50,328 nucleotides of DNA from Parcubacteria group bacterium Greene0416_39 (GCA_007375675.1 VMEU01000005.1:1-50328); one strand, 5' to 3'; shown: positions 7,522 through 48,564, counted from the first letter of the stretch. Numbers and translations are program-made. Notes: generated from the letters alone by a model not told the origin.

Positions 7522-8829
7522 TTACAGGCGTAATAGTTTCTCAAACTGCTTTTTCTCTTTTCCGCCTGCGGCGGATCCGCCTCTGGAGGAAAAGGGCCCA
7601 ACAAGTACAAGATTGAGTCTGTTATTCACAAAAAGCTCTTGGGCAACTCTCTTAATATCACTCGCCCTTACGCTCTTTATCTTATCATATACTTGGGCTG
7701 GCGTTAAAACCCGGTGCTCCAGAAGCTCCTGGATACCATAAAAGGATGCTTTCTCATCTGAAGCTTCAAGATTTAGAGCCATTTGCCCTTTGATATGCTC
7801 CTTTGCTTTCTTCAGTTCTTTGACAGGAACTGGGAAGCGAACAATCTTTTTGTACTCGTGCAAAATGGTTCTTATCGCCTTCTCTGCGTTGCTCATCGTG
7901 ACGCCTGCCCTTGTAAGGAGGAATCCTGAATCCGGATCTTCTTCATTCGTCATCCCAACATCATAGGCAAGACCAAGTTTGTCTCGCACCTCAATAAAAA
8001 GACGCGAGCTCATCATCCCCCCTAGGATGGTTGCAAGAAGTCCTTGGGTAAATCTAGCAGGATGGAACATGTTGTATGCCCTTACTCCAAGCGCAATTCG
8101 CGCTTGGTCTATTCCCCGCCATTCGAGAAGAATCTCTGGTTTTTTTTGGGATTCGTACACAGGTTTTCTGTCTTTGAACATTTCTTGTGAAGTCTTGCTG
8201 AAAAGCGAAGCTGCGCGTTTTTGCGTATCTTCCTCATCAATATTCCCTGCAACGCATACCACGGTTCTTGATGCTATGTACTGACGTTTCATGTAAGAAA
8301 TCATATCTTGCCTCGTGAGGTTCAAAACGGTTTCTTTGGATCCTGCAACATTCCACCCTGCGGGCTGATCTCCGTAGAGCACTTCCCTCCAAAGGATTTC
8401 GGCTTTGCGCATGGGGTTGTCGTTGTAGATATTGATCTCTTCTATGACAGCTCCCTTTTCTTTTGCAATTTCTTTTGCCGGGAATATGGAGTTGAAAAAG
8501 ATATCTGAAACAAAATCAAGGGCGAGCGGCAAATCGTCGTATTCCACCTTGATCCAGTACCCAGTGAGTTCTTCGCTGGTGAACGCATTAAATGTTCCGC
8601 CTACCGCATCAATTGGTTCTGCGATTTCCAGGGTGCTCGGCCGCTTTTTGGTGCCTTTGAAAAACATGTGTTCCAAGAAATGCGAGATGCCGTTTTGCTC
8701 TTTGGTCTCGTACTTAGATCCTGTTTGCACCAATACCAAAACCGTCGCCGCCCCGGTTTCTTTTTGCGGAACAGTGACAATTCGAAGTCCCGAGGGAAGC
8801 GTAATCTTTTTAGGATTGAAGTCTGTCAT
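7522..8829 (-). CDS. M16 family zinc metallopeptidase
   Basis: HFLEHMFFKGT (HxxEH), TYxWIKVEYDDLPLALDFVSDIFF, R(S)RLFIEVRDKLGLAYDV. Confidence 0.93.
   Translation of the reverse strand: MTDFNPKKITLPSGLRIVTVPQKETGAATVLVLVQTGSKYETKEQNGISHFLEHMFFKGTKKRPSTLEIAEPIDAVGGTFNAFTSEELTGYWIKVEYDDLPLALDFVSDIFFNSIFPAKEIAKEKGAVIEEINIYNDNPMRKAEILWREVLYGDQPAGWNVAGSKETVLNLTRQDMISYMKRQYIASRTVVCVAGNIDEEDTQKRAASLFSKTSQEMFKDRKPVYESQKKPEILLEWRGIDQARIALGVRAYNMFHPARFTQGLLATILGGMMSSRLFIEVRDKLGLAYDVGMTNEEDPDSGFLLTRAGVTMSNAEKAIRTILHEYKKIVRFPVPVKELKKAKEHIKGQMALNLEASDEKASFYGIQELLEHRVLTPAQVYDKIKSVRASDIKRVAQELFVNNRLNLVLVGPFSSRGGSAAGGKEKKQFEKLLRL
7561..7590. repeat. Double-hairpin (6-3-6 x2) in-frame insertion in M16 peptidase gene
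   Basis: TCCGCC-TGC-GGCGGA | TCCGCC-TCT-GGAGGA. Confidence 0.85.
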
Positions 8830-10210
8830 GGATTGCTGACGCAAGATCTTTTATCTTACTGCGTTCTTGCTTCATGGTATCGCGGTCGCGTAACGTGACT
8901 TTCTTGTCCTCTAAGCTCTCGAAGTCAACCGTAACAACCAGAGGAGTGCCGATTTCGTCCTGCCTGCGGTAACGTTTGCCAATGCTTTGGGTTTCGTCGT
9001 ATTCACAGACAAACTCTTTTGATAATGTTTCAAAAATATCTTTTGCAACTTTGCTTAACTCGGGTTTTTTGGAAAGCGGGAGAACCGCAACTTTCACTGG
9101 GGCCAACCACTTAGGAAATTTCATCACGACTCGGGTTGCGCTCTCGCCCTCCTCCTTCGGCTCGCCCTTTCGGGCGGCGGCTGTGGGGGCTTGTTCTTCA
9201 TGGTAGGCCTCCAGCATCGCCACCAATACCGAGCGATCCACCCCCCATGTAGGTTCAATGACATGAGGAAGGAATTTTTCATTCGTCTCAGTATCGGTAT
9301 ATCTCATGTCTTGTCCGCTTGCTTCCATGTGATTCTTCAAGTCAAAATCTCCCCGATACGCCAAGCCGTACAGTTCTTTTTGCCCAAACGGATATTCGTA
9401 CTCAATATCTACTGTTCTTTTTGAGTAATGGGCCCTTTCACCGTCTGGAATATCAACATAATGAAGTTTCTTGTCTGAAACACCGAGATGCTTAAGCCAC
9501 TGCTTCATTTGTCCCAGCCAGTGCTCAAAATACTTCTCCCATTGAGCTTCTGGGATAAAGTATTCTATTTCCATTTGTTCAAACTCCCGGGTGCGGAAAA
9601 TAAAATTCCCCGGAGTGATTTCGTTGCGGAACGCTTTCCCTTGCTGAGCTATACCAAAAGGAAGTTTGGGGTGATTAGTATCAAGGATATTCTTGAAATT
9701 CACAAACATTGCTTGAGCTGTTTCTGGACGGAAATATACTATATTGGAGGCATCTTCAGTTGGGCCCAGAAATGTCTTGAGCATGAGATTGAACTGCTTG
9801 GATTCTGATAACTTTAGTTCTCCGCCGCATGGCCCATTCTTGAAAATACCTGGGCATTTTACTCTGCCATCTACTTGGGATTCATCCAAAGCATCGGCTC
9901 GAAAACGGTTATGACATTTTTTGCATTCCACAAGCGGATCGGAAAAATTCTTCAGATGCCCGCTCGCTCCCCATACCTCGGGGTTCATCAACAAAGCTGC
10001 ATCGATGCCTACGATATCGGCACGAGAATGCACAAAACGCTTCCACCACTCCTGCTTGATGTTGTTTTTTAGCTCTACTCCAAGAGGGCCGTAATCCCAC
10101 GAATTGGCAAGACCGCCGTAGATTTCAGACCCTGGGAAGATAAATCCCCTCCGTTTTGCGAGAGAAACAATTTTCTGCATTAAGTCTTCCATATCGCTCA
10201 TTGTAGCCAT
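8810..10210 (-). CDS. glyS: Glycyl-tRNA synthetase (single-chain alpha2 type)
   Basis: KRRGFIFPGSEIYGGLANSWDYGPLGVELKNNIKQEWW, FRNEITPGNFIFRTREFEQMEIEYF, EPTWGVDRSVLV. Confidence 0.95.
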   Translation of the reverse strand: MATMSDMEDLMQKIVSLAKRRGFIFPGSEIYGGLANSWDYGPLGVELKNNIKQEWWKRFVHSRADIVGIDAALLMNPEVWGASGHLKNFSDPLVECKKCHNRFRADALDESQVDGRVKCPGIFKNGPCGGELKLSESKQFNLMLKTFLGPTEDASNIVYFRPETAQAMFVNFKNILDTNHPKLPFGIAQQGKAFRNEITPGNFIFRTREFEQMEIEYFIPEAQWEKYFEHWLGQMKQWLKHLGVSDKKLHYVDIPDGERAHYSKRTVDIEYEYPFGQKELYGLAYRGDFDLKNHMEASGQDMRYTDTETNEKFLPHVIEPTWGVDRSVLVAMLEAYHEEQAPTAAARKGEPKEEGESATRVVMKFPKWLAPVKVAVLPLSKKPELSKVAKDIFETLSKEFVCEYDETQSIGKRYRRQDEIGTPLVVTVDFESLEDKKVTLRDRDTMKQERSKIKDLASAIHDRLQS

Positions 10211-10218
10211 TTTCTTGC

Positions 10219-11856
10219 CTACTGTACAACGCCTTTGCCTTGAGAAGCAGGGTCGTCGGGAAGCGTTGTATCGAGAGGAACGTCGGAAGACGAGAGAGAC
10301 TGCAGGGTCCACGTGTCGTCTCCTGTGATACGCGCTTCTCCAAGAATTTGAGGAGTTGTTCCGCGCTGGGAAGAATTCGGGATGAATGCAACCTGGAATG
10401 CGATTGAAACAGCAGGACTTGAAATACCGGCGCCAGCTGCGAGATCTCCCGCGCTCCAGACAATTTCTCTTGATTGGGAATCAAAGGTCAAGGAAGCGTT
10501 CTCTGGAAACAACTTTCCGGTAAGCTCAACTCCCTGGGGCAAGGTTGCTCTTACTTTTACATTTTTCACTTCGTTTGAACTATTCTCTGTTTTCCAGATA
10601 ACAGTATAGGTAGTCTTATTGCCAACACCCAGGGGAAGAGGCCCTGAATTTCCAAACACTTCGTCCTGGAAATATGCTGCTTGATGAATGAGAAGATTTG
10701 AGCTCACTTTCACCTCAAACTCTGCGCGAGCTTCAGATAGGAGAACCTTGTCGCGCACCATAAGATTCTTGCCCTGAACGCTTTGAAGGGTCACCCAGAA
10801 TTCTGCCTTTCCTTCTTCCCCTTGGCCCAACAACCTAAGCTTGGCCACGTCCCGCGCCTCCCATACCACGGAATTATCTCCTTTCTGGAATTTACCGTTG
10901 TCTGTTCTCACGGTGGAAACGTCAAACGACTTTCCTTCAAGACCAACAATAAGAAACAGATTCTCAAGGTCTTTCTCGCTCACGTTGCGGAAAAAAATTT
11001 CGTAATGCAAAGTATCTCCTGGAGACACGCTTTGAGAACCGTTCCCATTAATGAACTGGGAAATCCGAATTTCGGGCTTGGTAATCTCAATCCCTTTCAC
11101 AACCTCTTTTAAGAGCGTGAACTTTCCGTCTTTCCATGTGCCAATGGTTGCCCTTAGAGTCTTTAATTCCTGAAGTTCGCCTGCCAGTGTCCCCTTGACT
11201 GAAATTCTTCCTCCTTGAGTCTTGTTGAGAAGCGGAACGCGCCACTCGTTGTCTCCCAAAGAAGCGGGGATTGCCTCGCTAAACTCAAATCCTTGAGGGT
11301 ATTCAATTTCAATCTTTAAATCTGACAAAGGATAGTCAGAATTGGAAAAGTAGTTCAGCGCAAAGGTGAATTGTTGGCTAGCCTCAATGCGAGAAGGAAC
11401 GTCAAGGTCAAAGCTCAAAGGCACCAAGGAAATGATTGTTGTGGAGAAGGTTTCTGCTTCGTATCTCGCGTTAAGGTTTCTTGGCTTGTAAGAAAGCATT
11501 GCTTTTGCTTCCTTGATATCTCCCTCTGCCCCAAACAACCGAGCCTTGAACGCGAGGGAATCTTCTTGCCCGGGGTAAATGTCTTCAAGCTGTTTTGTTG
11601 CGCGGAGGAGAGCGCCTTGTGAAGGCAAAGAGTTTTCAGGGTATTCAAAAATCACAATGGCATTCTCCAAAGCAACGTCTCCGTTGTTCTTCCATTTCAC
11701 AATATAGGTTATCTCCTGGCCCATCACGGCTTTGTCTGGAGCCAATAACTCAAGTTTCAAATCCTCTTTTGAGGTGCTGTTCCTCTGCCAAAGCAAAAAT
11801 CCTCCGGCCACAAAAAGGAGACCTACTCCGAGAATAACAAGCCAAAGGTTTTTCAT
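10219..11856 (-). CDS. N-terminally membrane-anchored protein with DUF11/CARDB-like Ig-fold repeats
   Basis: N-terminal TM (LWLVILGVGLLFVAGGFLLW) followed by repeats such as EITYIVKWKNNGDVALENAIVIFEYPE and HYEIFFRNVSEKDLENLFLIVGL. Confidence 0.7.
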   Translation of the reverse strand: MKNLWLVILGVGLLFVAGGFLLWQRNSTSKEDLKLELLAPDKAVMGQEITYIVKWKNNGDVALENAIVIFEYPENSLPSQGALLRATKQLEDIYPGQEDSLAFKARLFGAEGDIKEAKAMLSYKPRNLNARYEAETFSTTIISLVPLSFDLDVPSRIEASQQFTFALNYFSNSDYPLSDLKIEIEYPQGFEFSEAIPASLGDNEWRVPLLNKTQGGRISVKGTLAGELQELKTLRATIGTWKDGKFTLLKEVVKGIEITKPEIRISQFINGNGSQSVSPGDTLHYEIFFRNVSEKDLENLFLIVGLEGKSFDVSTVRTDNGKFQKGDNSVVWEARDVAKLRLLGQGEEGKAEFWVTLQSVQGKNLMVRDKVLLSEARAEFEVKVSSNLLIHQAAYFQDEVFGNSGPLPLGVGNKTTYTVIWKTENSSNEVKNVKVRATLPQGVELTGKLFPENASLTFDSQSREIVWSAGDLAAGAGISSPAVSIAFQVAFIPNSSQRGTTPQILGEARITGDDTWTLQSLSSSDVPLDTTLPDDPASQGKGVVQ

Positions 11857-11937: not shown

Positions 11938-11949
11938 TCATGCTAAACA

Positions 11950-12570: not shown

Positions 12571-12574
12571 AAGG

Positions 12575-15499
12575 TTAGGTTTTAATTACGAGATGCAGAG
12601 ACAGGTTTTCTATCATAACGTCTTTCTCTTTATTAAATTTCGCGGGGCGTTTTCCTGTGGCTAAAACAAGTGCCCCAATTTTTTGAATTTGGTTTTGATG
12701 TTTTCGAATGATTGTTTTCAGCTGCTCATCCCCTTCATAGTACAATGTTGCCTTTTGCCCTGGTTTATATCCGGCTTCCTTGCGTAGACCTTGAATGGTA
12801 CGCACAATCTCCCGAACCATTCCTTCTTCTTTCAGCTCTGGAGTAATGAGAGTATCTAACTCAACCTCTGTTTTTAAACCTTTATCAAAGATAACTTGTT
12901 TTACGTTTACCTCGTCTTTGATTAAATTGAGAAGTTCGTTTCGGATTTCGGACTTCGCCCCATCATTCGATGGGGCGCCCTGTCGAATGACGGGGCGGAT
13001 TTTCAGTGAGGCTAAGGGTTGCCTCACTTTTATTCCCGATTTTGCCCGTTCTGCAAGGGCTTTGGCAACAATAATGCGAACTTCAGTCATTTGTGTTTCA
13101 AGCTTCTCGTCGCGGAGGGACTTGCCCTGAGCGAGGCCGCGTTTAGCGGCTGATGGGAAGGGCCAATCCTGCCAATGCACGCTCTCTTTATGTCCAATCC
13201 CTTGAAAAATGTGTTCTGCCAAAAACGGAATAAAGGGTGCTGCCAACTTGCATACTTCAGAAAGCACGAAACCAAGAACGCCGCATGCGTCTTTCGCTCT
13301 TTGCCTTGACCTGCGTATATACCAAAGAGAAAGGTCATTCACGACAAAATCTTGAATTGCTCTTCCAGCGCCAGTTATATCGTACGAGTCAAGTTTATCT
13401 GTCACATCTTTGGTTGTTCCGTTCAGTCGCGACAATATCCATTTGTCAAGAACATGTTTGGTATTTAGTATTTGGTATTTAGTATTTAGTTTCACTGCAT
13501 AGGTTTTGTAAAAAACAAAGCAGTTCCATAAAGTGAGTAGGAAATTGCGGGTTGCGGCTTGAATGTCTTTTTCAGAAAAGAGCTTGGGGTCTCCAGGATT
13601 GTTTATGGTGTAGAAATACCACCGCACAGCGTCAATCCCATACTTGGTGATTATGTCCCACGGACTCACCGTATTCCCTTTTGACTTTGACATCTTTTCT
13701 CCTTTTTCATCAAGCACATGGCCAGTGGAAATAACATTTTTGTAGGACGCCCCAAATCCAAGCAGAGTGGAAACTGCAAGCAGGGTGTAAAACCACCCTC
13801 TCGTCTGGTCAATGCCTTCTACAATGTAGTCAGCAGGAAATTCCTTTGGTTTCTTTTCTCCCATCCAGTAGTTTTGGGCAAAGGGCATGGCGCCAGAATC
13901 GTACCACACGTCAACAACTTCTTTCACTCTCCGCATGACTCCTGTTTTGCATTGAACGCATGCAAACACAATGTCATCAACGTAGGGTCTATGAAGATCG
14001 ACCTCGCCCTTTTTATTGTGTGGCAATGCATGAGCTCTTTTTTCCAACTCCTGAACCGAACCTATAACCTCTATGTGATTGCACTTTTTGCACTCCCATA
14101 CAGGAAGAGGGGTGCCCCAGTAGCGCTCCCGTGAAAATGCCCAGTCTTTCACTTCTTTGAGCCATTCTCCCATTCTCCCTTCTTTCACGTGCGAGGGAAC
14201 CCAGTTTATGCTCCCGTTGTTGGCAATCAACTCCCGCTTCACCTTTTGCATGTTCACGAACCAGCTGTCTTTTGCGTAGTACAGCAAAGGCGTAGAGCAT
14301 CTCCAGCAAAACGGATACTCGTGAGAATATTTTTGAACGGCAAGAATGGTATTGTTTTCCTTGAGATACGCAAATATCTTCTCATCTGTTTCTTTGGCTT
14401 TTACTGGCAGCCCCGCGAGAAGTCCTGGCACTTCTTTGGTGAACATGCCCGTTTCTCCAACCGTATGGTGCTGAGGCAAACCTGCTTGTACCCCGAGATT
14501 GTAGTCATCCTCGCCATACATTACCGCAGTATGCACAACTCCTGTGCCGTTTGTTGTTGTCACAAAATCTGCGGTATAAATTTTATGCGATTTTTCGTTG
14601 CGGAGGGATTCTATTGGGAAAAGCTGCTCGTACGATAAACCAACCAGGTCTTTCCCAGAGATAGTGTCTAGTATTTCGTATGTAGCACCTAGTGTTTTTT
14701 CTACTAGATCTTTTGCCAAAATGTAGTTTTCGCTCTTTTCTTTGATACTTACTACTTGATACTTAATAGTTTCTCCTACGGCTAAAGCCACGTTGCCTGG
14801 CAAAGTCCAAGGTGTTGTGGTCCAAGATAAAATATAGGTTCTATCGTTTGTTACCCAGTTACCAATTTTCTGCCCCGGTTTCATGCGGAACTTTACGTAT
14901 ACAGAATCATTCTCAATAGTCTTGTACCCTTGCGCTAACTCATGGGAAGACAAGGGAGTCCCGCATCGTGTACAATAAGGCACTACCTTGTAACCCTTGT
15001 AGAGCAATCCTTTCTGCCACAATACTTTTATAATAAACCAAAGGGTTTCAAGGTATGAGGTTTGGTAGGTAATGTAGGGATGTTCCAGATCAATCCAAAA
15101 CCCCATGCGCTCTGTGAGATTTTCCCAATCTTGCTTATACTCCCACACAGACTTTTTGCATTCTGTATTGAACTTCTCAATGCCATATTGCTCAATGTCT
15201 TTTTTGGATTTTAAGCCAAGCTTTTTTTCAGTTTCAATTTCCACGGCCAAGCCGTGGGTATCCCACCCTGCTTTTCTCTCAACCAAAAAACCCCGCATAG
15301 TTTTGTACCTGCAGATGATGTCTTTAAAAGACCTGGAAAGTACGTGGTGAATGCCAGGCTTTCCATTCGCAGTAGGCGGCCCCTCATAAAACACAAAAGG
15401 AGGAGATTTCTTTCTCCTCTTAATGGACTTTTCAAACGCTTTTTGCTCTTTCCAGCGCTTTAGTATCTTCTCTTCCAGCTGCGGAAAATTTACATCCAT
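12575..15499 (-). CDS. ileS: Isoleucyl-tRNA synthetase
   Basis: FYEGPPTANGKPGIHHVLSRSFKDIICRYKTMRGF, GWDTHGLAVEIE, GIDQTRGWFYTLL, KMSKSKGN. Confidence 0.96.
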   Translation of the reverse strand: MDVNFPQLEEKILKRWKEQKAFEKSIKRRKKSPPFVFYEGPPTANGKPGIHHVLSRSFKDIICRYKTMRGFLVERKAGWDTHGLAVEIETEKKLGLKSKKDIEQYGIEKFNTECKKSVWEYKQDWENLTERMGFWIDLEHPYITYQTSYLETLWFIIKVLWQKGLLYKGYKVVPYCTRCGTPLSSHELAQGYKTIENDSVYVKFRMKPGQKIGNWVTNDRTYILSWTTTPWTLPGNVALAVGETIKYQVVSIKEKSENYILAKDLVEKTLGATYEILDTISGKDLVGLSYEQLFPIESLRNEKSHKIYTADFVTTTNGTGVVHTAVMYGEDDYNLGVQAGLPQHHTVGETGMFTKEVPGLLAGLPVKAKETDEKIFAYLKENNTILAVQKYSHEYPFCWRCSTPLLYYAKDSWFVNMQKVKRELIANNGSINWVPSHVKEGRMGEWLKEVKDWAFSRERYWGTPLPVWECKKCNHIEVIGSVQELEKRAHALPHNKKGEVDLHRPYVDDIVFACVQCKTGVMRRVKEVVDVWYDSGAMPFAQNYWMGEKKPKEFPADYIVEGIDQTRGWFYTLLAVSTLLGFGASYKNVISTGHVLDEKGEKMSKSKGNTVSPWDIITKYGIDAVRWYFYTINNPGDPKLFSEKDIQAATRNFLLTLWNCFVFYKTYAVKLNTKYQILNTKHVLDKWILSRLNGTTKDVTDKLDSYDITGAGRAIQDFVVNDLSLWYIRRSRQRAKDACGVLGFVLSEVCKLAAPFIPFLAEHIFQGIGHKESVHWQDWPFPSAAKRGLAQGKSLRDEKLETQMTEVRIIVAKALAERAKSGIKVRQPLASLKIRPVIRQGAPSNDGAKSEIRNELLNLIKDEVNVKQVIFDKGLKTEVELDTLITPELKEEGMVREIVRTIQGLRKEAGYKPGQKATLYYEGDEQLKTIIRKHQNQIQKIGALVLATGKRPAKFNKEKDVMIENLSLHLVIKT
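12957..12996. repeat. Double-hairpin (8-4-8 x2) in-frame insertion in ileS
   Basis: GCCCCATC-ATTC-GATGGGGC | GCCCTGTC-GAAT-GACGGGGC; complementary loops. Confidence 0.85.
13456..13491. repeat. Heptanucleotide tandem repeat (ACYAAAT)n within ileS
   Basis: Coding strand ACTAAAT ACTAAAT ACCAAAT ACTAAAT ACCAAAC, encoding LNTKYQILNTKH. Confidence 0.85.
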
Positions 15500-15552
15500 A
15501 CAATATAAGTTAGCACCTCTTCTTCTTTTTTTCAACGATAAAAAGGGCTACT

Positions 15553-16180: not shown

Positions 16181-17968
16181 TCACATTCTTTCAGGGGCGA
16201 CAATACCCAAAAGAGATAAACTATTTTTGATAATCTGGGCCGTGGCGGCAGTGAGCAATAGACGGGACTGCTTTGTGGCCTTATCTTCTGCCTGCAAAAC
16301 CCTATGGGTGTTATAGAAATTGTTGTACGCCTGAGCTACCTCAAACACAAAAGTCGCAACAACATTGGGAGAGAATTTCTCTGCCGCTTCCTTGACCACT
16401 TCCGGGAATCGGTATGCCAATCGAAGAATATCGAGCTCTTCTTTTGAAAACTGAAGTTTGGAATTTGGAATTTGGAATTTGGAATTTCCCGCTTTGCGGG
16501 CGATGCTTTTGCACCTGGCGTACGTGTACTGAAGGTACGGCCCGGAATTGCCTTTGAGGTTCAGAATTTTCTCCCAGTCAAACACAATATCGCCTGCAGG
16601 ATGCTGGGAAAGGTCGTTGTATTTGACCCCTCCGATTCCCACCGATCTAGCAACCTCTGTTTTTTCTTTGTCTGACAGTCCTCTCGTGGTCTCAGATTCT
16701 TCAATGATTGTTCTTGCTCTCTCGATTGCCTCGCTCAACACCTCTTCTAGATGAATCGTCTGGCCCTTTCTTGTTGAAAACTTTCCTTCTTTGCTTCTGT
16801 ATAGACCATGGGCTATATGCACAAGCTTTTCGTTATCTACAATTTCTGCCAGCCTTGCTGCAAGAAACACCTGTTTGAAATGTAAGGTTTGCTCCACCCC
16901 TGTTTCAATGACAATTGTGCTTGGTTTCCAGCGCTTCATCCGGTACTTCATATTTGCCAAATCGCGCGTGAAATAGGTAGTTACGCCATCTGTTTTCAGA
17001 AGCATTGCGGGAGGCAATTCGTCGTTTGGGAACGGAACAATCAAGGCTCCTTCACTTTCCCTCGCAAGTTTCTTCTCTTTGAATTCTTTCACAATTTGTC
17101 CCATCTTGTCCTCTCCGCCCCGACTGGGCGAGATCTCGCCTTTGGCGGAAAAAAAACTCTCGCCGATCGTATAGTCGATCTTCACGTTGAGCAGATCATA
17201 GATCCTCTCAAATTCCCGCAAGCTAATTTTTCTTGTTGCCTCCCAAATCGCGCGTGCTTCTGCATTATTCTGTTCAAGTTTTTTGAACCACGCTCGTGCC
17301 CCTTCTTCCATTGCGGGATTTAAGGCAAGCTCGGTATGGAAATCTACATACAGTTTTTCGAGATTTTCTATTGTTAGGCCGTTTAGAATTTTCTTTTGCT
17401 CTTTTGCCGTTTTCCCTTTGAGTTTCTTTCCATACAGCTGATAGAGAATTTTCCCGTGAGGAGTTCCCCAATCACCAGGATAGTTTATCCCAATGCATTT
17501 GTATCCAAGAAATGTATAGAGGTTGTATATTGCTTGACCAATAATAGTAGAACGCAAATGCCCAATACCAAACGATTTTGCAATGTTTGGGCTTGAATAT
17601 TCAATGATGATTTTCTCTTTTGACTTGCCAGACCCATATTTTTCTTTCTGTTCCACCATTTGGCGTAGTTCTCCAAGAAAAAACTCTTTTTTGAAGAAAA
17701 AATTAATGAACCCAGGGCCAGCCACCTCTACCTTCTCAATACTGGTATCTAGTATTTTGTATTTAGTATTTAGTATGTGACTACGTATCTCCTCGGCGAC
17801 TTCGCGGGGGGGTTTGCCGAGCTGTTTTGCCAAAATCAAAGCAACATTTGTTGAATAATCGCCGTGGTCTGAGTTTTCCGGATGCTCCAAAAAAATCTCT
17901 TCTTTTGAAAGCTTAAACTCTTTGCCAATAGCATTGAAGATGATCTGCTGGAGCTCCTCGCGAATCAT
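16181..17968 (-). CDS. argS: Arginyl-tRNA synthetase
   Basis: IIEYSSPNIAKSFGIGHLRSTIIGQAIYNLYTFLGY, NYPGDWGTPHGK, KFSTRKGQTI. Confidence 0.96.
   Translation of the reverse strand: MIREELQQIIFNAIGKEFKLSKEEIFLEHPENSDHGDYSTNVALILAKQLGKPPREVAEEIRSHILNTKYKILDTSIEKVEVAGPGFINFFFKKEFFLGELRQMVEQKEKYGSGKSKEKIIIEYSSPNIAKSFGIGHLRSTIIGQAIYNLYTFLGYKCIGINYPGDWGTPHGKILYQLYGKKLKGKTAKEQKKILNGLTIENLEKLYVDFHTELALNPAMEEGARAWFKKLEQNNAEARAIWEATRKISLREFERIYDLLNVKIDYTIGESFFSAKGEISPSRGGEDKMGQIVKEFKEKKLARESEGALIVPFPNDELPPAMLLKTDGVTTYFTRDLANMKYRMKRWKPSTIVIETGVEQTLHFKQVFLAARLAEIVDNEKLVHIAHGLYRSKEGKFSTRKGQTIHLEEVLSEAIERARTIIEESETTRGLSDKEKTEVARSVGIGGVKYNDLSQHPAGDIVFDWEKILNLKGNSGPYLQYTYARCKSIARKAGNSKFQIPNSKLQFSKEELDILRLAYRFPEVVKEAAEKFSPNVVATFVFEVAQAYNNFYNTHRVLQAEDKATKQSRLLLTAATAQIIKNSLSLLGIVAPERM
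16456..16489. repeat. Heptanucleotide tandem repeat (TTCCAAA)n within argS
   Basis: Coding strand TTCCAAA x4, encoding NSKFQIPNSKLQ. Confidence 0.85.
17115..17148. repeat. Double-hairpin in-frame insertion in argS
   Basis: CGCCC-CGACT-GGGCG and CGCC-TTT-GGCG joined through perfect palindrome GGCGAGATCTCGCC; encodes AKGEISPSRGGED. Confidence 0.75.
17741..17776. repeat. Heptanucleotide repeat within argS
   Basis: Coding strand ACTAAAT ACTAAAT ACAAAAT ACTAGAT ACCAGT, encoding ILNTKYKILDTS. Confidence 0.8.
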
Positions 17969-18473: not shown

Positions 18474-18823
18474 GGGGGTGTACGATTTGACAAGAAGCAT
18501 GAGGAACTTTTTGCAGGCCAAGTTTCCTGGAGTCTTGCATGCCCACCATAGCTTTAGCGAAGGTGGGCGAAAATCCAGGGGCATACTAACTGCCAACATA
18601 TTTGTCCCGCAACGCGGGACTCTCGCTTACGCGTAATACGCGATAAGCCATCTGGATCATTGATTCTCGATATATGATCCGGGTGTCATTCATCGAGAAA
18701 ACAAAGTAGCAAAGGGAAGGGGGTTTTGCCCAATTTCCACCTCTTCTCAACAACGAATTGGGATACGCCTGGAGAAGAGAGTTCTAAATCTTTTTGGACA
18801 CGGGTTCAACCCCGTCACCTCCA
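18474..18823 (+). ncRNA. ssrA: tmRNA (SsrA); encodes tag (A)NIFVPQRGTLAYA
   Basis: 5' GGGGGTG pairs with 3' CACCTCC; T-arm GACACGGGTTCAACCCCGTC; tag ORF GCC AAC ATA TTT GTC CCG CAA CGC GGG ACT CTC GCT TAC GCG TAA; directly follows smpB. Confidence 0.9.
18541..18568 (+). repeat. Palindromic element embedded in tmRNA
   Basis: GCCCACC-ATA-GCT-TT-AGC-GAA-GGTGGGC; same fold as the 29895-29920 element. Confidence 0.75.
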
Positions 18824-18874
18824 CTGCTTCGCTCCTCGCTTCCGCTCGGAGCTTCGTAGTGTAAACACACATTT

Positions 18875-19915: not shown

Positions 19916-20333
19916 GATTGTTGGCTTTTTTGAGGAGTTTTTTTGCATTCGGAAACTTCAGCTTCAAAAGCGCTTTGTCAAAGGGAAGCCAAATGTACGC
20001 CAAATGTTCCTGGGAGATCTTCACGTCTTTGAGGCGTGTTTCTCCAAGAAAAAATACCACGGTTTTGAAAATCTTCTGGCCCTGTGCCTGGAACATGTAA
20101 GAAATGGTCTCCTTGAACCCATTAAGAAGCATAAGGTCTTTGACCCCGGTTTCTTCTTGAACCTCTCGTTTCACGGTTTCAATTTCAGTTTCTCCTTTTT
20201 CAATGTGCCCTTTGGGGAAATCCCAGTACTCTCTTTTGACCCTTGAGCCAGATGGGTAGTGCAACAAAAGATAGAAGGGTTGGCCCCCTTCTTTTCTGAA
20301 TACGACTGCTCCTGCTGATATTTCTTTAGGCAT
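19893..20333 (-). CDS. NUDIX hydrolase
   Basis: GHIEKGETEIETVKREVQEETGV Nudix box. Confidence 0.92.
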   Translation of the reverse strand: MPKEISAGAVVFRKEGGQPFYLLLHYPSGSRVKREYWDFPKGHIEKGETEIETVKREVQEETGVKDLMLLNGFKETISYMFQAQGQKIFKTVVFFLGETRLKDVKISQEHLAYIWLPFDKALLKLKFPNAKKLLKKANNLIFSLPQ

Positions 20334-22104
20334 GGTTCCTCTTATCTTTTAGCATCTGAAGAAATTTATCAAGAGGGAGGGTATTTACCACGTCTGCCTT
20401 TTGAGCCCATCCTCTCCTGGCTTGCGCAATGCCAAAGTTCAAAAATCTGAGGTGTTCTGTGCTATGAGCATCAGAGTTAATGACCATTTTTACTCCTGCT
20501 TCCACTGCTTTTTTAATATGAATATCTTTAAGGTCGAGCCGCCTGGGTTGAGCGTTAACTTCAAGCACCGTGCCTGTCTGCTTTGCTTCTTGAATAATAG
20601 CATCAATATCAATGTCGTAGGAATCTCTCTTGGGCATTGATCTCCCGGTAGGATGAAAGAGGATGTCCACATGGGGGTTTCTCATTGCCCGCATAATCCT
20701 TTCTGTCATATCATTCTTTGACATTTTGAAGTTAGAATGCACCGCTGCTCCTACCACGTCAAGCTTTGCGAGTGCTTCATCCTCAATGTCCAGGGTTCCG
20801 TCTTTTCTAATATTCACTTCTGCTCCTTTCAAGATTCGAAATTTTGCCCGATCATCCGATCGGGCAACCCAGTCGGATGACTGGGTTGAATTTATCCTGT
20901 CTATCTCTTTCATCTGACGCAAGAGCTTTTTCTCATCAGATCCGCCTGTCATTGCAAGGTCTTTGGTATGATCGGTAATCGCAATATAGCTCAACCCTTG
21001 CTTTTTTGCTTCCCGTGCCATTTCCTCAATGGAGTTGTTCCCATCAGTCCAGTTGGTTTGAATCTGAAGGTCTCCTTGCAAGGAACCATACGGGATAAGG
21101 GCTGGAAGACCTTGAGCGAGCGGAGCGAGCCGAAGGGCTGCTTCGATTTCTCCGGTATCTTCTCGCAGCTCAGGCTCAATGTACTGCATGCCAAGAACCT
21201 TGTATATTTCTTCTTCTGTTTCGCATGCAACTCTCTTCTCCCCTTTGAATAATCCGTACTCTGAAAGCTTGTAGCCCTTTTGCAAGGCCAAGGTACGCAG
21301 TTTCACGTTGTGCTCTTTGGAGCCGGTAAAATACTGGAGACCTGCGCCAAAAACTTCTTCTGGGAGGACCCGAACGTCAATATTAAAACCGCGTAAAGTA
21401 TGCACAGAAACTTTGGTAGGACCTCGGCCCCACAGCTTATCGTATTTCACGTACGACAGAAAAAACTCAATGACTTTTTCTGGCGTTTTTGTGGTAACTA
21501 ACATGTCGACGTCTCCAACCGTTTCTTTCATACGTCGTATGGAGCCAGCTGCTACTGCCTGTTTCACAAGTTTAGAATGTTGGAATGTTAGAATGAGCTC
21601 CTCAACGTAAGGATAGATAGCGCCGAGCAGCCATCTTCCTTGCGATCGTTTTACAAACTCAATTGCTTGGAGAATGTTCTGCTCGCTCTTTTCTCCAAAA
21701 TGCGGGAGTTTTCGTATCTGTCCGCCCTTAGCAGCTTGCTCAAGACCTTTGAGGTCTCGTACTTTGAGCTTCTCATAAAGCTCCTTGATGCTCTTGGGGC
21801 CCAGCCCTTCCACCAAACTTAGCTCGTCAAGGTCTATGGGATATTTTTTACGATACGCCTCATAATCTTGCACTTTTCCGGTTTTAAGATGCTCCTCAAT
21901 GCGCTCTGCGATTCCTTTTCCTACTCCTGGAATTTTTTCCAGCCCCTTGAGCCCTTCTGTTTTGTACAGCTCTTCAACATCCTGCGAGAGCGATTCCACT
22001 GCCGTGGCCGCCCTTTCATACGCCTGCGGCTTAAACGGAACATCGTCCATGTGAAGGTACAAAGCCATGTGAGCAAGTATGTTTGCGACCTCTGGGTTTT
22101 TCAT
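20326..22104 (-). CDS. polX: DNA polymerase X family protein with C-terminal PHP domain
   Basis: HhH IPGVGKGIAERIEEHLKTG; AAGSIRRMKETVGDVDMLVTT; PHP GDLQIQTNWTDGNNSIEEMA, YIAITDHTKDLAM. Confidence 0.94.
   Translation of the reverse strand: MKNPEVANILAHMALYLHMDDVPFKPQAYERAATAVESLSQDVEELYKTEGLKGLEKIPGVGKGIAERIEEHLKTGKVQDYEAYRKKYPIDLDELSLVEGLGPKSIKELYEKLKVRDLKGLEQAAKGGQIRKLPHFGEKSEQNILQAIEFVKRSQGRWLLGAIYPYVEELILTFQHSKLVKQAVAAGSIRRMKETVGDVDMLVTTKTPEKVIEFFLSYVKYDKLWGRGPTKVSVHTLRGFNIDVRVLPEEVFGAGLQYFTGSKEHNVKLRTLALQKGYKLSEYGLFKGEKRVACETEEEIYKVLGMQYIEPELREDTGEIEAALRLAPLAQGLPALIPYGSLQGDLQIQTNWTDGNNSIEEMAREAKKQGLSYIAITDHTKDLAMTGGSDEKKLLRQMKEIDRINSTQSSDWVARSDDRAKFRILKGAEVNIRKDGTLDIEDEALAKLDVVGAAVHSNFKMSKNDMTERIMRAMRNPHVDILFHPTGRSMPKRDSYDIDIDAIIQEAKQTGTVLEVNAQPRRLDLKDIHIKKAVEAGVKMVINSDAHSTEHLRFLNFGIAQARRGWAQKADVVNTLPLDKFLQMLKDKRNHA
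20846..20885. repeat. Double-hairpin (8-4-8 x2) in-frame insertion in polX
   Basis: GCCCGATC-ATCC-GATCGGGC | ACCCAGTC-GGAT-GACTGGGT; complementary loops. Confidence 0.88.
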
Positions 22105-35520: not shown

Positions 35521-36150
35521 CTATGCTTTCTTTCGACCTTTGGGGGGTACAGTACTGTACCCCCCTTTGCCGTGGTTGTTTTCTTTTTCTTTTTTGATCA
35601 TGTTGATAAGTTCTTGCACCAACACTGTGGGGTCTGCAGCCATAATGACTTTTTTGCGCCCCCGATACCCGTCCTTGAACAAAAAGTCGATTTTGTCCGC
35701 GGTGCCTCCGGTGCCCTCCAGCACGCCAATGGGTTTTTTGTCTTCAAACGCAACGGTGAATTCGTTGAGCGTGCCCATCCTCCCGCAGATGATAATAACG
35801 GCATCTGCAGAACGCGTAAGAATGAGGTTGCGGCCGGCGTACCCTGCCCCCGTGTACACGATCAAATCAAATTCGTTGACGGGCAGACGATACACCTTGA
35901 TGTGTTCTTTTTCCGTGCCTGCAGGAGAAAATCCGATCGAAATTCCCTTAGCATCGTTTGCGCCAACAGCTGCCCAGTAGGGAATACCTGTGGTGGCGCC
36001 CGTGAGCAGCACGGCCCCTTGCTTCACGATTTGTCTTCCCACTTCTTTTGCAATCTCTTTTGCGTTGGGGCTGCAAATGTCCAAAGCGGCAGCGCCCGAC
36101 ACGCAGATTTTGTACTTCCTTATATAATCGCTGGTGCTCTGTTGCTTCAT
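35521..36150 (-). CDS. LOG-family-like Rossmann nucleotide-binding protein
   Basis: ICVSGAAALDI..., LLTGATTGIPYWAA, SADAVIIICGRMGTLNEFTVAFEDKKPIGVL (GxxGTxxE). Confidence 0.78.
   Translation of the reverse strand: MKQQSTSDYIRKYKICVSGAAALDICSPNAKEIAKEVGRQIVKQGAVLLTGATTGIPYWAAVGANDAKGISIGFSPAGTEKEHIKVYRLPVNEFDLIVYTGAGYAGRNLILTRSADAVIIICGRMGTLNEFTVAFEDKKPIGVLEGTGGTADKIDFLFKDGYRGRKKVIMAADPTVLVQELINMIKKEKENNHGKGGYSTVPPKGRKKA
35542..35565. repeat. Perfect 24-bp palindrome within the 3' end of the LOG-like CDS
   Basis: GGGGGGTACAGTACTGTACCCCCC, encoding GGYSTVPP. Confidence 0.9.
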
Positions 36151-37842: not shown

Positions 37843-39144
37843 TCATACTTTTTTGATTTTGTCCATCTCTTCTCTTACAACCTCTCTATCATCCCAGGGG
37901 ATTTTTTTGCCTCCTTTTTGCGCAATAGAATCTTCGCAGCCCTTGCCGGTAATAACAACAGTGTCTCCGGGCTGTGCCAAAGAAAGAGCTTGTGCTATTG
38001 CTTCTCTCCGATCAAGAATTTTGAATACCGCGGATTTATGCGGATTCTGCTGATTAATACTGATACTTTCAGCGCCGCTCGCAACCTGCTCCATAATTTT
38101 TACAGGATCTTCTTCGTAGGGATCTTCGTCGGTCACAATGATCTTATCGCAATAGGTTCCGGCAAGCTTTCCCAGAACCGGCCTCTTCCACCTGTCCCTG
38201 CCACCCCCAGCTGCGCCGAGTACACAAATAAGTTTTGGGCTTTGGGGAGCTGAGCTCCCGCTTGGGAGCTCAGCTCCCAAGACTGCTCCTTCTCGAAAAG
38301 TTTTATAAACCTTTTCGAGAGCTGCTGGAGTAAACGCATAATCAACAATCACCCGAAAGGGGTGCGCGATAACTTCTTCCATTCTTCCTGGCACTCCTTC
38401 CATATTCTCTAACGCACGCTTGCAAATTTCCAAAGAAACCCCAAAGCTCTTTGCAACGCATAGTGCAGCTGCTGCGTTGTACAAATTGAACTCTCCTAAA
38501 AGTTTTAGGTGAAAGTCTGGGATATTTTTTGCATCAGACAGAGAATACTGCAATACTTTCTCTGCGGGGAACTGCAAAAAGTATGAGGAGTTTTTGTCAT
38601 CAGCATTAATCACATGAACCTTTTTTGCTACTTGGAACAATTTTCCTTTTGCTTCTCTATATTTCTCAAACGACCCGTGGCGCTCAATATGCTCTGGAGA
38701 AAGATTCGTGAATACCGCCGTATGAAAATTGAGAAACCTGTGGCGATGCTGAAGAATTCCTTCTGACGTAACCTCTATCACCGCGTGGGTGCATCCAGCA
38801 TCTACTGCCTGCCTCAAAAATCTTTGAATCACAAAACGACCCGGCATGGTCATTTTCAAACGATTCCGCCAAGTCTTGTCCCTAATCTGAAATCGAATTG
38901 AGGAAAGAGAAGCAGTTTTGAATCTCATCGAGTCTGAGGACTCTTCAGAGTCTGAACGACCTGCTTCAAGAAATATTTTTGAAATCATCTCAACAGTCGT
39001 AGACTTCCCATTCGTTCCCGTCACCCCAATCACCGTCATTCTCCTTGCAGGAAACCCATAGAGTAAAGCCCCAAAACCCGCCCATGCAAAATGATACCAG
39101 CTTAGCAAAAAACTTGGGACAAACTTCCTTAATAGATTTTTCAT
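37843..39144 (-). CDS. MurE-like Mur ligase
   Basis: VIGVTGTNGKSTTVEMI, AVIEVTSEGILQHRH, NLSPEHIERHGSFEKYREAK, DYAFTPAALEKV, LGAAGGGRDRWKRP. Confidence 0.88.
   Translation of the reverse strand: MKNLLRKFVPSFLLSWYHFAWAGFGALLYGFPARRMTVIGVTGTNGKSTTVEMISKIFLEAGRSDSEESSDSMRFKTASLSSIRFQIRDKTWRNRLKMTMPGRFVIQRFLRQAVDAGCTHAVIEVTSEGILQHRHRFLNFHTAVFTNLSPEHIERHGSFEKYREAKGKLFQVAKKVHVINADDKNSSYFLQFPAEKVLQYSLSDAKNIPDFHLKLLGEFNLYNAAAALCVAKSFGVSLEICKRALENMEGVPGRMEEVIAHPFRVIVDYAFTPAALEKVYKTFREGAVLGAELPSGSSAPQSPKLICVLGAAGGGRDRWKRPVLGKLAGTYCDKIIVTDEDPYEEDPVKIMEQVASGAESISINQQNPHKSAVFKILDRREAIAQALSLAQPGDTVVITGKGCEDSIAQKGGKKIPWDDREVVREEMDKIKKV
38245..38278. repeat. Double-palindrome in-frame insertion in the MurE-like gene
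   Basis: GGGAGCTGAGCTCCC-gctt-GGGAGCTCAGCTCCC; perfect 15-bp inverted repeat whose arms are each near-palindromic. Confidence 0.9.
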
Positions 39145-40877: not shown

Positions 40878-40926
40878 TCTCTGTCTCCTTGTCTTGTAGA
40901 ATGGTAACAGCTAAAGTTATGATACC

Positions 40927-43881: not shown

Positions 43882-43883
43882 TT

Positions 43884-44249: not shown

Positions 44250-44261
44250 GTTCGTAGATTA

Positions 44262-45107: not shown

Positions 45108-46292
45108 TTACTCTCCAACAACTACCAAGGTCATGGTTTCGTTGTGGAAATATGCAGGCGTGCCTTTTTTCCCCAAAAGCGGACCCTGCTCTCCGTAGGT
45201 ATAAAATCCAACCATTGGAACATCTTTGCCAATCACGCCTAAGACCGTTTGGTTTTCCTCGTGGCACCTCACCCCCAAGAGTTTGTTGCGCGCCATGCAG
45301 TTAAACATCAAGATGAACCCAGGCTTTGCTTTGTTGAGCTGATCAATCGCGACCTCGGCTGCTTCTTTTGCTGCGGCAATTGCCTTGTCTCGATCTCCAA
45401 TCATAAGACGGATCGTGGTTCCTTGAGGGATGGCTGCTGCCATTGTGATCTCTCCTTTTTCATTGGCAATCACAGGGTCTCGAATCAGAAGCTCGTCAGA
45501 GCCTTCTACTGTTAAGCCGATAGGATAGGTATATGCCATGCGAGCAAGGGGTTCTTTGACGAGTTCCGCGGCGTCTTTCCCAAAATACTCCTCATAGACA
45601 TTCAGGGCTGGTTTCCCATCAACCTCTTTAAGCACAGCTCCCTCTGCTTTGGTAACCTTCAGCGGTAATCCAATGGGCTCCCAGCCGTGTTTGATCCCGA
45701 ATCCGTAGGAAAATTTTCCGTAGAGTCCAACTCCTACAACAACATCCGTCAGTACTTGGTCTTGATAATACTCAAAGGTTTTCTGAAAACGATAGTCGTC
45801 TCCCAAAGATCCGCCAACAATGGACGCATTTTCTCCGAGCACTGATTTTACTCCGTCCACGATTGCAGCTCCATTCCCAGTCATTCCGTCTGGCAGCATG
45901 ATAAAGAGATCGGGCTTTTGCCCGCCCCCCTTTTCAAGAACCGCTTTTGCTGCTTTGGCCCCGGCTCCAAAGCTATCTTTGGAAACACCCTCTCCTATAC
46001 CTGTCACAAACTGTATCGAGTCTGAAGCAATTGCCATTGCGTTAACTCCATCAAACACGGTACTGAAAGAAGTTATTTCTCCCGCGGCGCTCCCTCCAAC
46101 TACCAAGGCATCTCCTACAACTTCCCTCACGCCCTTGAGCACTGCTTCTTGGTCATACTGTATGGAAGAGTAGGCAAAAAGAATGTCTGGTTTTTGCCCT
46201 GCTAACTTCTCCAACGCAGTCCTTGCTGCCTCTTTCCCTGCTTCTTTGTGATCTGCCAAATTTTGGCTCAACCCTACTCCTGCTTTGATCAT
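45108..46292 (-). CDS. FIST N/C domain sensory protein
   Basis: ILFAYSSIQYDQEAVLKGVREVVGDALVVGGSAAGEI, PDGMTGNGAAIVDGVKSVLGENASIVGGSLGDD, FYTYGEQGPL. Confidence 0.88.
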   Translation of the reverse strand: MIKAGVGLSQNLADHKEAGKEAARTALEKLAGQKPDILFAYSSIQYDQEAVLKGVREVVGDALVVGGSAAGEITSFSTVFDGVNAMAIASDSIQFVTGIGEGVSKDSFGAGAKAAKAVLEKGGGQKPDLFIMLPDGMTGNGAAIVDGVKSVLGENASIVGGSLGDDYRFQKTFEYYQDQVLTDVVVGVGLYGKFSYGFGIKHGWEPIGLPLKVTKAEGAVLKEVDGKPALNVYEEYFGKDAAELVKEPLARMAYTYPIGLTVEGSDELLIRDPVIANEKGEITMAAAIPQGTTIRLMIGDRDKAIAAAKEAAEVAIDQLNKAKPGFILMFNCMARNKLLGVRCHEENQTVLGVIGKDVPMVGFYTYGEQGPLLGKKGTPAYFHNETMTLVVVGE

Positions 46293-46314
46293 ATGAGTAA
46301 ATAAAAAAACTTAG

Positions 46315-48564
46315 TTAATGAGACTCGGCCTCGACTTTTTGTGTTTGGAGCTCTCCCCAGTTCTTCCCTGTTTTCACTTCGCACAAGAGCGGGGCTTTAA
46401 GCGCAACTGCTTGTTCCATAATCTTTTTGATCTTTACGCTTGCCTCTTCCAGTATATCATCGGCTATTTCAAACAACAACTCATCATGAATCTGCAAAAG
46501 AAGCCGTATCTTGGGGTTTTGCAACCCAAACTCTTTTGCTATGCTGACCATAGCAATTTTGATGATATCGGCTGCGCTTCCTTGTATTGGGTGGTTCACG
46601 GCTTCTCTCTCTGCCTGTGCTCGGAGTTGAGGAGCTAAAGAGTTGATTTCAGGGATATATCTCTTTCTTCCAAACAATGTTTCCACATACCCTTTTTCTC
46701 TCGCAAAGTCTTTGGTCTGCTCAATGTATAAACGAATCTTTGGAAAGCGTAAAAAATACTGCTCAATGAATGACTCTGCTTCTTCAATAGGTATCTGGGC
46801 AGAAGCTGCAAACCCCCTGGCGCCCATACCATAGAGCACGCCAAAATTCAAAGTCTTTGCTCTTGTCCGCATCTCATCTGAAACTTCAGGTTCTGAAACT
46901 CCGAATACTTCAGAAGCTGTCATTCGGTGAATGTCTTTGCCTTGCAAAAATACCTTTTCCATTTTTTCTTCTTCAGCTAAATGGCAGGCAATGCGAAGCT
47001 CCATTTGCGAGTAATCAAACGAGGTGAGAAAAAAGCCTTGCTCTGCAACAAATCCTTTGCGAACCCTCTTTCCCCAAAAACCTTGCACTGGAATATTCTG
47101 CAGGTTTGGAGAAGAGGAAGAGATTCTCCCTGTGGCAGCTCCGAGTTGGTCAAAGCGCGAGTGCACCCTGCTGTGTGTATCTGCCATGTGAGGCAAAGGA
47201 AGAAGATAGGTGCTCAAAAGCTTTGAGAGCTCTCGGTGCGCGAGCACCTCTTTTACTATGGGGTGGCCAAGTTTTATTAATTCATCAGACGCAGTGGAAA
47301 CAACGCCGCCTGGAGTTTTGCGCAGGCCTTTTGAAGAAAGCTCAAGCTTTTGAAACAATACTTCAGACAATTGCTTTGGAGAGGCAATGTTAAACACGAC
47401 TTCTCCTAACTCGTGAACTTTAGACTCAATCTTTATGAGCTCTTTTTGCATTTCTTTTGCAAGGCTCCCAAGATATGTCTTGTCTATTGTAATGCCCAAC
47501 TCTTCCATCGCGAGAACAACAGGAATCAATGCCTTCTCTAGTTCGTAGACTTTATCTGAAAGAATACCTTGCTCGTGGAATTGTTCAATCTTTTCTAACG
47601 AGGGCTGCGAGAGCGCTTGAGGTTTCCTTTTTTTGCCAGAAAGTTCGGGGAGTCTTTGGAGTAAAGTACGAAACTCAAACCGTTTGAGCATGCCTTCGGC
47701 GCCGGTTGTATCAAATCGTTTCCAGGCAAGGTCTTGCATTGTAAAGTCTAGGGGAACTCTCTGAATAGTCGCAAGATCCCTGCTCATAAACGCTTGGTCT
47801 TTGTATTGCGTCAAAAGGGCGGCAAGTTTTGGCTTTATCTTTTTGTCTCCCTTCGGGAGATCTCCCGTAGGGAGACTTTCCTTGAGGAGTTCTTCGTAGA
47901 GGTTATCCAAAGAACCAAACGCATTGAGCAGCATGATCGCGGTTTTCTCTCCAACTCCCGTAACTCCAGGAATGTTGTCTGAAGGATCCCCCCTCAACCC
48001 CTTGTAGTCGGTGAGTTGGCTTGGCAGCAACCCTCCAAATCTCTTTTTTACCGTATCCACGTCATAGAGCACCGTGTCTTGCAGGCCTTTACGGGACGTG
48101 TATACCTTGGTATGTTCGTCTACCAACTGCAAAGCGTCCATGTCTCCTGAAACCAAAATGGTTTCCAAACGAGGGTGAGCCTGTTTCTTGGGAGCCGCCT
48201 TTGCAATGGTTCCAAGAATGTCGTCTGCCTCAAACCCTTCTTTTTCATACGAGGGAACGCCAAACGCTTTGAGCGCCTCCTTTACTAAAGGAATTTGGCT
48301 ATACAATTCGTCTGGCGCCTTCACCCGCTTTGCCTTGTATTCTTTAAATGCAAGGTGGCGGAGTGTCGGGCCTTTCACGTCAAAAGCCGCCGCGATGTAA
48401 TCTGGCTGAAACTCTTTTACCGCCTTGAAAAACAACAAAAGAAAGCCATAGAGGGCATTCACCATTTCTCCTTTTGCAGTGGTCAAAGGAGGAAGTGCGT
48501 GAAACGCCCGGTGAATCAAGGAGTTTGCGTCAATAACAAGCAGCCGCTTTTTCTTTTCCGCCAT
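46315..48564 (-). CDS. polA: DNA polymerase I (5'-nuclease plus polymerase; 3'-5' exonuclease domain apparently absent)
   Basis: VIDANSLIHRAFHALPPL, GVGEKTAIMLLNAFGSLDNLYE, TGRISSSSPNLQNIPV, DYSQMELRIACHL, RTRAKTLNFGVLYGM, QIHDELLFEI. Confidence 0.94.
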   Translation of the reverse strand: MAEKKKRLLVIDANSLIHRAFHALPPLTTAKGEMVNALYGFLLLFFKAVKEFQPDYIAAAFDVKGPTLRHLAFKEYKAKRVKAPDELYSQIPLVKEALKAFGVPSYEKEGFEADDILGTIAKAAPKKQAHPRLETILVSGDMDALQLVDEHTKVYTSRKGLQDTVLYDVDTVKKRFGGLLPSQLTDYKGLRGDPSDNIPGVTGVGEKTAIMLLNAFGSLDNLYEELLKESLPTGDLPKGDKKIKPKLAALLTQYKDQAFMSRDLATIQRVPLDFTMQDLAWKRFDTTGAEGMLKRFEFRTLLQRLPELSGKKRKPQALSQPSLEKIEQFHEQGILSDKVYELEKALIPVVLAMEELGITIDKTYLGSLAKEMQKELIKIESKVHELGEVVFNIASPKQLSEVLFQKLELSSKGLRKTPGGVVSTASDELIKLGHPIVKEVLAHRELSKLLSTYLLPLPHMADTHSRVHSRFDQLGAATGRISSSSPNLQNIPVQGFWGKRVRKGFVAEQGFFLTSFDYSQMELRIACHLAEEEKMEKVFLQGKDIHRMTASEVFGVSEPEVSDEMRTRAKTLNFGVLYGMGARGFAASAQIPIEEAESFIEQYFLRFPKIRLYIEQTKDFAREKGYVETLFGRKRYIPEINSLAPQLRAQAEREAVNHPIQGSAADIIKIAMVSIAKEFGLQNPKIRLLLQIHDELLFEIADDILEEASVKIKKIMEQAVALKAPLLCEVKTGKNWGELQTQKVEAESH
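47846..47875. repeat. Double-hairpin (6-3-6 x2) in-frame insertion in polA
   Basis: TCTCCC-TTC-GGGAGA | TCTCCC-GTA-GGGAGA. Confidence 0.9.

Follow-up and report, generated by a model that had tools for sequence, protein, structure and literature searches.

The 50,328-nucleotide contig VMEU01000005.1 of Parcubacteria group bacterium Greene0416_39 (GCA_007375675.1), analysed in full and called the window here, carries in six conserved genes in-frame inserts made of two adjacent small hairpins. These inserts are insertions and fall into recurring families; family A occurs patchily within and beyond the phylum, with a short sequence X on both sides and its reverse complement X' between the two hairpins. 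They are likely to be non-autonomous palindromic micro-elements of several coexisting families, which enter the chromosome and last at sites where the damage is small. A sequence-only reading of the window had first pointed out the inserts; its observation was confirmed and its interpretation partly supported. The presence of the families in tRNA gene fragments of relatives changes what the element looks like.

Sequences and analysis

The window is contig 13 of a 14-contig Patescibacteria genome (G000; 517,233 bp, 97% complete), and the whole of this genome was examined. The nearest relative by PolX search (G001) is a complete genome in four contigs. Family-level samples consisted of 25 genomes of the family of G000 and the phylum sample of 380 genomes. 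Genes were called by greedy open reading frame (ORF) length and the host genes were identified with NCBIfam and Pfam as M16 peptidase, IleRS, ArgRS, PolX, MurE and DNA polymerase I. The location of inserts in loops was inferred from alignment gaps. An unbiased survey of insertions of 7–30 residues was made with 319 reciprocal best hits between G000 and G001, a strong hairpin being one with z below −2.5.

Inserts in the window

All six inserts described in housekeeping coding sequences were present where they had been reported, and the nearest relative lacked the extra residues at each site. They belong to family A (40 nt), to family B (30 nt) or to neither.

7561–7590, −: M16 peptidase gene (ORF 7522–8844, −), family B 30-nt double hairpin, 6-3-6 ×2 with one mismatch, encoding SSRGGSAAGG
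12956–12997, −: ileS (ORF 12575–15535, −), family A element; CG 12956–12957, core1 12958–12975, CG 12976–12977, core2 12978–12995, CG 12996–12997
17114–17149, −: argS (ORF 16181–17968, −), loose family-B-like double hairpin encoding SAKGEISPSRGG; hairpin z −4.6
20844–20888, −: polX (ORF 20326–22104, −), family A element with trinucleotide X; TTG 20844–20846, core1 20847–20864, CAA 20865–20867, core2 20868–20885, TTG 20886–20888; net 42 nt
38245–38278, −: murE (ORF 37843–39144, −), two 6-3-6 hairpins forming a 15-4-15 palindrome, neither A nor B; hairpin z −5.1
47846–47875, −: polA (ORF 46315–48564, −), family B 30-nt double hairpin, perfect 6-3-6 ×2

The exact 6-3-6 ×2 layout proposed for M16 and polA was perfect in polA, whereas hairpin 2 of M16 has one mismatched pair (TCCGCC/GGAGGA). 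The 8-4-8 ×2 layout proposed as common to ileS and polX has to be amended for polX, which consists of two 10-bp hairpins sharing a CAA/TTG trinucleotide (20844–20867 and 20865–20888); one T–G pair is present in hairpin 2 of ileS. The 15+4+15 description of murE stands for the insert as a whole, its finer parts being two 6-3-6 hairpins and a 4-nt spacer. The argS insert, taken as a looser version, appears to be related to the 30-nt family B, with a bulge, and the murE insert is separate. The suggestion of a single family defined by structure alone was not borne out: ileS and polX carry members of a family recognizable by sequence (the ileS element matches the covariance model with E = 6e-13), M16 and polA those of a different one, so that at least two families can be told apart by sequence among the inserts.

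Excess over chance and absence from orthologs

The two-hairpin grammar is real, and that of family A is strict. In the whole genome 51 double hairpins scored at least 30, against 1–10 in order-2 Markov genomes. Coding genes contained 31 at this threshold and 12 at a score of at least 38, compared with 4–8 and 0–1 after synonymous shuffling and 1–4 and 0 after shuffling of codon order. Within the window four double hairpins were found against a mean of 0.55.

Alignment with G001 gave extra residues at each of the six sites (ileS +11, polX +11, M16 +10 exactly, polA +7, murE +15 and argS +12 exactly). The earlier view that these are in-frame insertions in conserved genes was right; the sites vary in length among orthologs. 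The PolX insert was missing in all 29 other orthologs aligned, the loop length at this site varying in any case, and the polA insert was missing in all other aligned orthologs of the family. The M16 insert was missing in 21 of 22 other full-length family orthologs; in the exception, G024, the same codon holds a family B copy whose stems differ yet remain paired. Family B copies in polA were found in G000 and G001 only, that of G001 lying about 80 residues further on. Since the polA sites differ between G000 and G001 and the M16 site is filled only in G000 and G024, these are taken as independent insertions.

In the unbiased survey, strong hairpins were present in 16 of 58 G000 insertions (28%) compared with 1.25% of random gene segments; on the G001 side, 6 of 70 insertions contained them. 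Hairpin inserts thus make up more than a quarter of the medium-sized protein insertions that distinguish G000 from its nearest relative. In a lineage known for its reduced genomes, palindromic micro-elements are therefore a main source of new stretches of protein.

Family A and family B

The 40-nt consensus of family A is CCCnnTCATYCGAnnGGG – X' – CCCnnTCGRATGAnnGGG. The hairpins are inverted pairs with stems of 7–9 bp and 4-nt loops; the loops (ATYC and GRAT) are conserved and the stems covary freely. G000 contains 13 two-hairpin copies and a few partial ones, weighted to protein genes and often flanked on both sides by GGATTTC-type heptads, as in ileS. The genic hosts are ileS, polX, leuS, cysS, tsaE, lepA, prepilin peptidase, a 679-aa protein taken from its sequence as an NAD-dependent DNA ligase, and one unnamed protein.

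The grammar of family A is X–core1–X'–core2–X, where X is a dinucleotide, or in polX alone a trinucleotide, and X' is its reverse complement. Flanks in the 72 copies are mostly CG, CA or TG, frequently in the context TTC^GA, and 50 of them show the pattern CG-CG-CG. The middle is not self-complementary in nine copies; in eight of these, polX included, its exact reverse complement stands on either side. Stems were identical between the two hairpins in just 1 of the 72 copies, compared with 11.5% for randomly paired copies, so that perfect long palindromes seem to be avoided.

The claim that all inserts keep the reading frame holds for the survivors, but the net insertion of family A is usually 40 nt, so that survival in a gene requires a compensating indel in the flanks; with its 3-nt X, polX is in frame at a net 42 nt. 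TGA occurs in one of the element's reading frames, and genic copies use only the two open phases.

Family B consists of two abutting 6-3-6 hairpins. Besides M16 and polA, four more copies are present in G000 and nine or so in G001, and the family occurs in 16 of the 25 family genomes. Of 15 copies examined in relatives, 12 lay within open frames of more than 500 nt. No target duplication is apparent for family B in M16 and in locus L123.

Tandem heptads (GAAATCC/AAATCCG) surround several family A copies (window 12940–13005; G000 C3:18760–18779 and C4:5728–5758), and at the same PolX loop the heptads of relatives are of the AAATTC type (NSKFKIQNSKF). One family A copy (L153:687–748) has another family hairpin nested in the loop of its first hairpin.

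tRNA gene fragments and distribution

Outside proteins, family A was mostly located 8–60 nt 3' of tRNA genes within a partial copy of the tRNA 3' end, in the order T-stem, TTC, family A element, GANTC, T-stem and acceptor strand. A tRNA gene lay at most 200 nt upstream of 23 of the 42 copies in the scan. Sites in the anticodon loop of tRNA 5' halves were found for family A at L118, L120 and L214 and for one family B copy at L197. In G240 (L123:1860–2330) three different double hairpins occupy the T-loops of three tRNA-Lys copies; one is family B and one is a third kind with CG-CG-CG flanks.

Family A was found in 10 of the 25 family genomes (G001 not among them) and in 18 of the 380 phylum genomes. 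The exact pattern occurs in 39 stretches of genome_contigs, mostly Patescibacteria, with further records filed as Omnitrophota, Elusimicrobia, Lentisphaerae, Planctomycetota and Deltaproteobacteria. Named records sharing elements include Wildermuthbacteria, Yanofskybacteria and other Parcubacteria-type metagenome-assembled genomes. The exact pattern was absent from IMG/VR viral contigs, and carriage by phage was rejected on this result.

The T-loop and the anticodon loop are known integrase crossover positions in tRNA genes. Family A might accordingly be read as the scar of site-specific integration, in which duplication of the tRNA 3' half, as by integrases, gives attL/attR in one of these loops and the double hairpin marks the crossover. 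The coincidence of family A sites with these two loops, the partial tRNA 3' ends 8–60 nt downstream of intact tRNA genes and the tandem units in L149 are in its favour. We regard this as unlikely nevertheless: G238 and G293 gave no Phage_integrase (PF00589) match, the same element lies in protein genes, the duplicated halves are often unlike the neighbouring tRNA and the units would be only about 70–130 bp long. A spliceable intron in an intact tRNA gene was rejected because the joined flanks never give a full tRNA across the junction.

At L149:784–973 (−) a tandem pair of units (AAGGGTTC – family A – GAGTCCTACTGGGGGCAC) follows tRNA-Lys. A possible empty site is seen at L019:12128–12200 (−; G000 C4), where tRNA-Arg(gcg) is followed 34 nt downstream by a hairpin-free partial T-arm/acceptor copy. 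Other tRNA 3'-end copies are located at L104:9576–9720, near L092 8576 and at L132:1020–1233. Such copies carry unrelated hairpin inserts at tRNA-Lys in G014, and a common AAGGGGTCGGGAAA element at tRNA-Lys in G001 and tRNA-Gln in L132.

Candidate enzymes

G000 has five Y1_Tnp genes resembling those of REP-associated tyrosine transposases (RAYT; REP, repetitive extragenic palindromic), several of them flanked by their own hairpins. One is in the window.

49074–49826, +: Y1_Tnp (RAYT-like) transposase gene, PF01797; related hairpins GTTAGAGGC..GCCTTTAAC at 49082 and 49834, with similar ones at G000 C14:51349 and C4:74207

The inserts could be REPIN-like elements moved by these transposases, and their inverted-dimer layout resembles REPINs and REP dimers (PMC3116915, PMC3733652). 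This explanation is improbable. Family A copies were absent from all 35 RAYT loci, the RAYT-adjacent hairpins differ in sequence, the ends of family A lack GTAG, and no Y1_Tnp match was found in the family A carriers G238 and G081 or in the family B carrier G005. RAYT was rejected as the mover of family A on account of the missing copies and the carriers lacking Y1_Tnp.

Reverse transcriptase gave no match in the carriers G002, G022, G238 and G007. The one-contig genome G238 carries family A with no Y1_Tnp, RVT_1 or Phage_integrase match; it has a serine recombinase match, a class not found in G000, G002 and G003, the richest carriers of the family. Reverse transcriptase, tyrosine recombinase and serine recombinase were each rejected as an obligatory mover, being missing in some carriers. 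The same absences set the elements apart from IS200/IS605 or other HUH-moved elements (G238 and G081) and from retro-elements moved by reverse transcriptase (the four carriers named). The mover may be another enzyme, may act in trans or may since have been lost. TIGR-Tas arrays, which occur in the candidate phyla radiation (CPR), were set aside; covarying self-complementary stems do not fit guide spacers.

Stem changes

Stems changed on both sides at 11 of 16 pairs in family A and 9 of 12 in family B. Two-sided and one-sided changes numbered 35 and 1 in A and 46 and 0 in B. At stem position 4 of family A all four Watson–Crick types are present in similar numbers. The 144 family A hairpins contain 695 Watson–Crick pairs, 20 mismatches and five G–U pairs (5/720). 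Selection on RNA should pass through G–U pairs and copying of a DNA arm should not; with G–U nearly absent, we infer arm copying at the DNA level, and the stems are probably maintained by copying of one arm from the other. The near-absence of G–U offers a simple test between these two causes that is applicable to other hairpin families.

Replication template switching is a known process (PMC8604942, PMC8794818, PMC7202029), and there may be no mobile element at all if hairpins arise in place by such switching, as inverted copies of nearby sequence. Two-sided stem changes, copying of X' and extension of palindromes into the flanks would be expected, as for the process elsewhere (PMC8794818, PMC8604942). 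We find it hard to accept this as the sole source. The loops and closing pairs (TCATYCGA/TCGRATGA) are kept across genera and phyla at a constant length of 40 nt, which independent local events would not give, and the homology between copies across genes and genomes argues likewise; a role in upkeep may remain.

It is very improbable that selection on RNA folding preserves the hairpins as RNA elements (terminators, mRNA stabilizers or tRNA 3'-trailer structures). The predicted hairpins are very stable and many family A copies are found immediately downstream of tRNA genes, but G–U pairs are fewer than mismatches, most G000 copies are inside coding genes, presence is patchy, and the Rfam scan of the window matched only the tmRNA and one tRNA. 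DNA uptake signals for competence, to which a short motif recurring in many genes might point, can be dismissed in this form, as the core 8-mers TCATNCGA are not enriched (14–25 genomic occurrences, with family A copies counted, where about 16 are expected) and the stems vary with pairing kept.

Proposed mechanism

We return to the reading of the inserts as non-autonomous micro-elements. The entry point of family A would be a Y–R step, mostly CG, within a hairpin loop, for instance TTC^GA in the T-loop of a tRNA, or the anticodon loop; fold-back synthesis would copy the target dinucleotide. Sites that tolerate an insert would be of two kinds, places where housekeeping proteins vary in length and duplicated tRNA gene halves, 3' or 5'; in protein genes the survivors would be in-frame outcomes only. 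Since the stems change on both sides at once, the arms may be kept perfect by DNA-level template switching.

More tentatively, and with considerable doubt, family A might represent a new minimal mobile DNA of ~40 bp. It would enter at Y–R steps (mostly CG) at DNA sites able to form the T-loop or anticodon loop of tRNA genes, set three copies of the target dinucleotide (direct, inverted, direct) about a pair of unlike hairpins and in doing so duplicate part of the tRNA gene; among groundwater bacteria it would have passed between phyla, and in the lineage of G000 it would have spread to essential protein genes, without the tested classes of transposase, integrase or reverse transcriptase.

Several points weigh against these proposals. 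For comparison with empty sites, orthologs in the nearest relative available are ~60% identical in protein, so that the edges of the protein inserts are approximate, those in M16 and argS excepted. As X is CG in most copies, the evidence for the reverse-complement rule comes from nine. The siting in tRNA loops is supported by the junction TTC^R, which lay within a T-arm-like site in 42 of 69 copies, but the test is lenient (3 bp) and accepts some protein sites too. When the element was removed in silico and the flanks were joined, an intact tRNA spanning the junction was never restored; the tRNA copies at these sites are thus partial, and that the element entered a tRNA loop is our deduction. 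Some of the non-Patescibacteria records may be binning errors, and the two-sided changes could also reflect unsampled intermediates. None of the enzyme classes tested is common to all carriers.

Comparison with known elements

Functionally, the inserts work like REP dimers, Rickettsia palindromic elements (RPEs) and mitochondrial double-hairpin elements; by their tags they are neither GTAG nor CGTC REPs, and their target and grammar are unusual compared with the known kinds.

The RPEs, cited earlier as precedent, are matched in being in-frame palindromic inserts in housekeeping genes, with several families per genome and no dedicated transposase known. RPEs are about 150 bp long and encode a conserved peptide (PMC10969869, PMC3733652), whereas the present inserts are strict double hairpins of 30–42 nt read in more than one frame, with family A recurring at tRNA gene fragments.

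REP dimers occur inside DNA repair and tRNA synthetase genes, and CGTC REPs have no known transposase (PMC3733652). CGTC and GTAG dimers, like the present elements, have two opposed short hairpins, the partners often unlike in stem, and occur in genes for DNA polymerase I, DNA ligase and tRNA synthetases (PMC3733652). Family A agrees with CGTC REPs (8–9 bp stem, 4–5 nt loop, inverted dimers, intragenic, no transposase) in its 7–9 bp stems and 4-nt loops. In contrast, it lacks the unpaired terminal CGTC (or TGTC/CCTC), the terminal A–T stem pairs and the CCA tail; its outer pairs are C–G and its NNTC, with NN variable, is inside the stem. No unpaired tag of the GTAG type was present in the 72 copies, and there is no RAYT association. 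REPINs, which are moved by RAYT (PMC3116915), share the inverted hairpin pair and non-autonomy, and RAYT-like genes are present here; however, the present elements are much smaller, unlinked to RAYT genes and present in genomes without Y1_Tnp. Family A further differs from REP dimers in the X–core–X'–core–X rule and in lying mostly in tRNA fragments outside G000.

Like the present inserts, the double-hairpin elements of Allomyces mitochondria and the repetitive hairpin elements related to them (cited in PMC2800124) are tandem pairs of small GC-rich hairpins with several dispersed copies, mobile on comparative evidence, for which no mover is known. They are mitochondrial and eukaryotic, and those of Allomyces are reported to lack flanking duplications, for which reason an RNA route was proposed (PMC2800124); family A has a 2–3 nt duplication and an inverted middle copy. 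For Neurospora mitochondria, a reference in PMC2800124 reports GC palindromes that flank tRNA genes.

No described CPR family had been known to the sequence-only reading, and in the open-access literature searched we likewise found none described, either from CPR bacteria or from tRNA loops, an absence that is weak evidence. The tRNA-fragment habitat and the X–X'–X signature give a concrete handle on movement, a question open since RPEs, REPs and the mitochondrial double-hairpin elements.

Other observations

Another palindrome family (CTTTGGAGGGTACAGTACTGTACCCTCCAAAG type), a single long hairpin, also occurs in proteins (EGAVLYPPK) and was found at window 35542–35565 and at G000 C4:68099, C4:83335, C11:67466, C14:7267 and C14:60926. 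A mostly intergenic double-hairpin family (TCGCTTCGTTAGCGATCGCTAACGAAGCGA) with ATC/GAT flanks is located at G000 C2:23125, C4:37486, C14:16543 and C2:22490.

18474–18826, +: tmRNA gene (Rfam RF00023) in the window
L025:2857–5073, − (G000 C11): 738-aa Xer-type tyrosine recombinase in which an apparent intein (TLRHC...FISHN/SFATDLL) interrupts the catalytic motif

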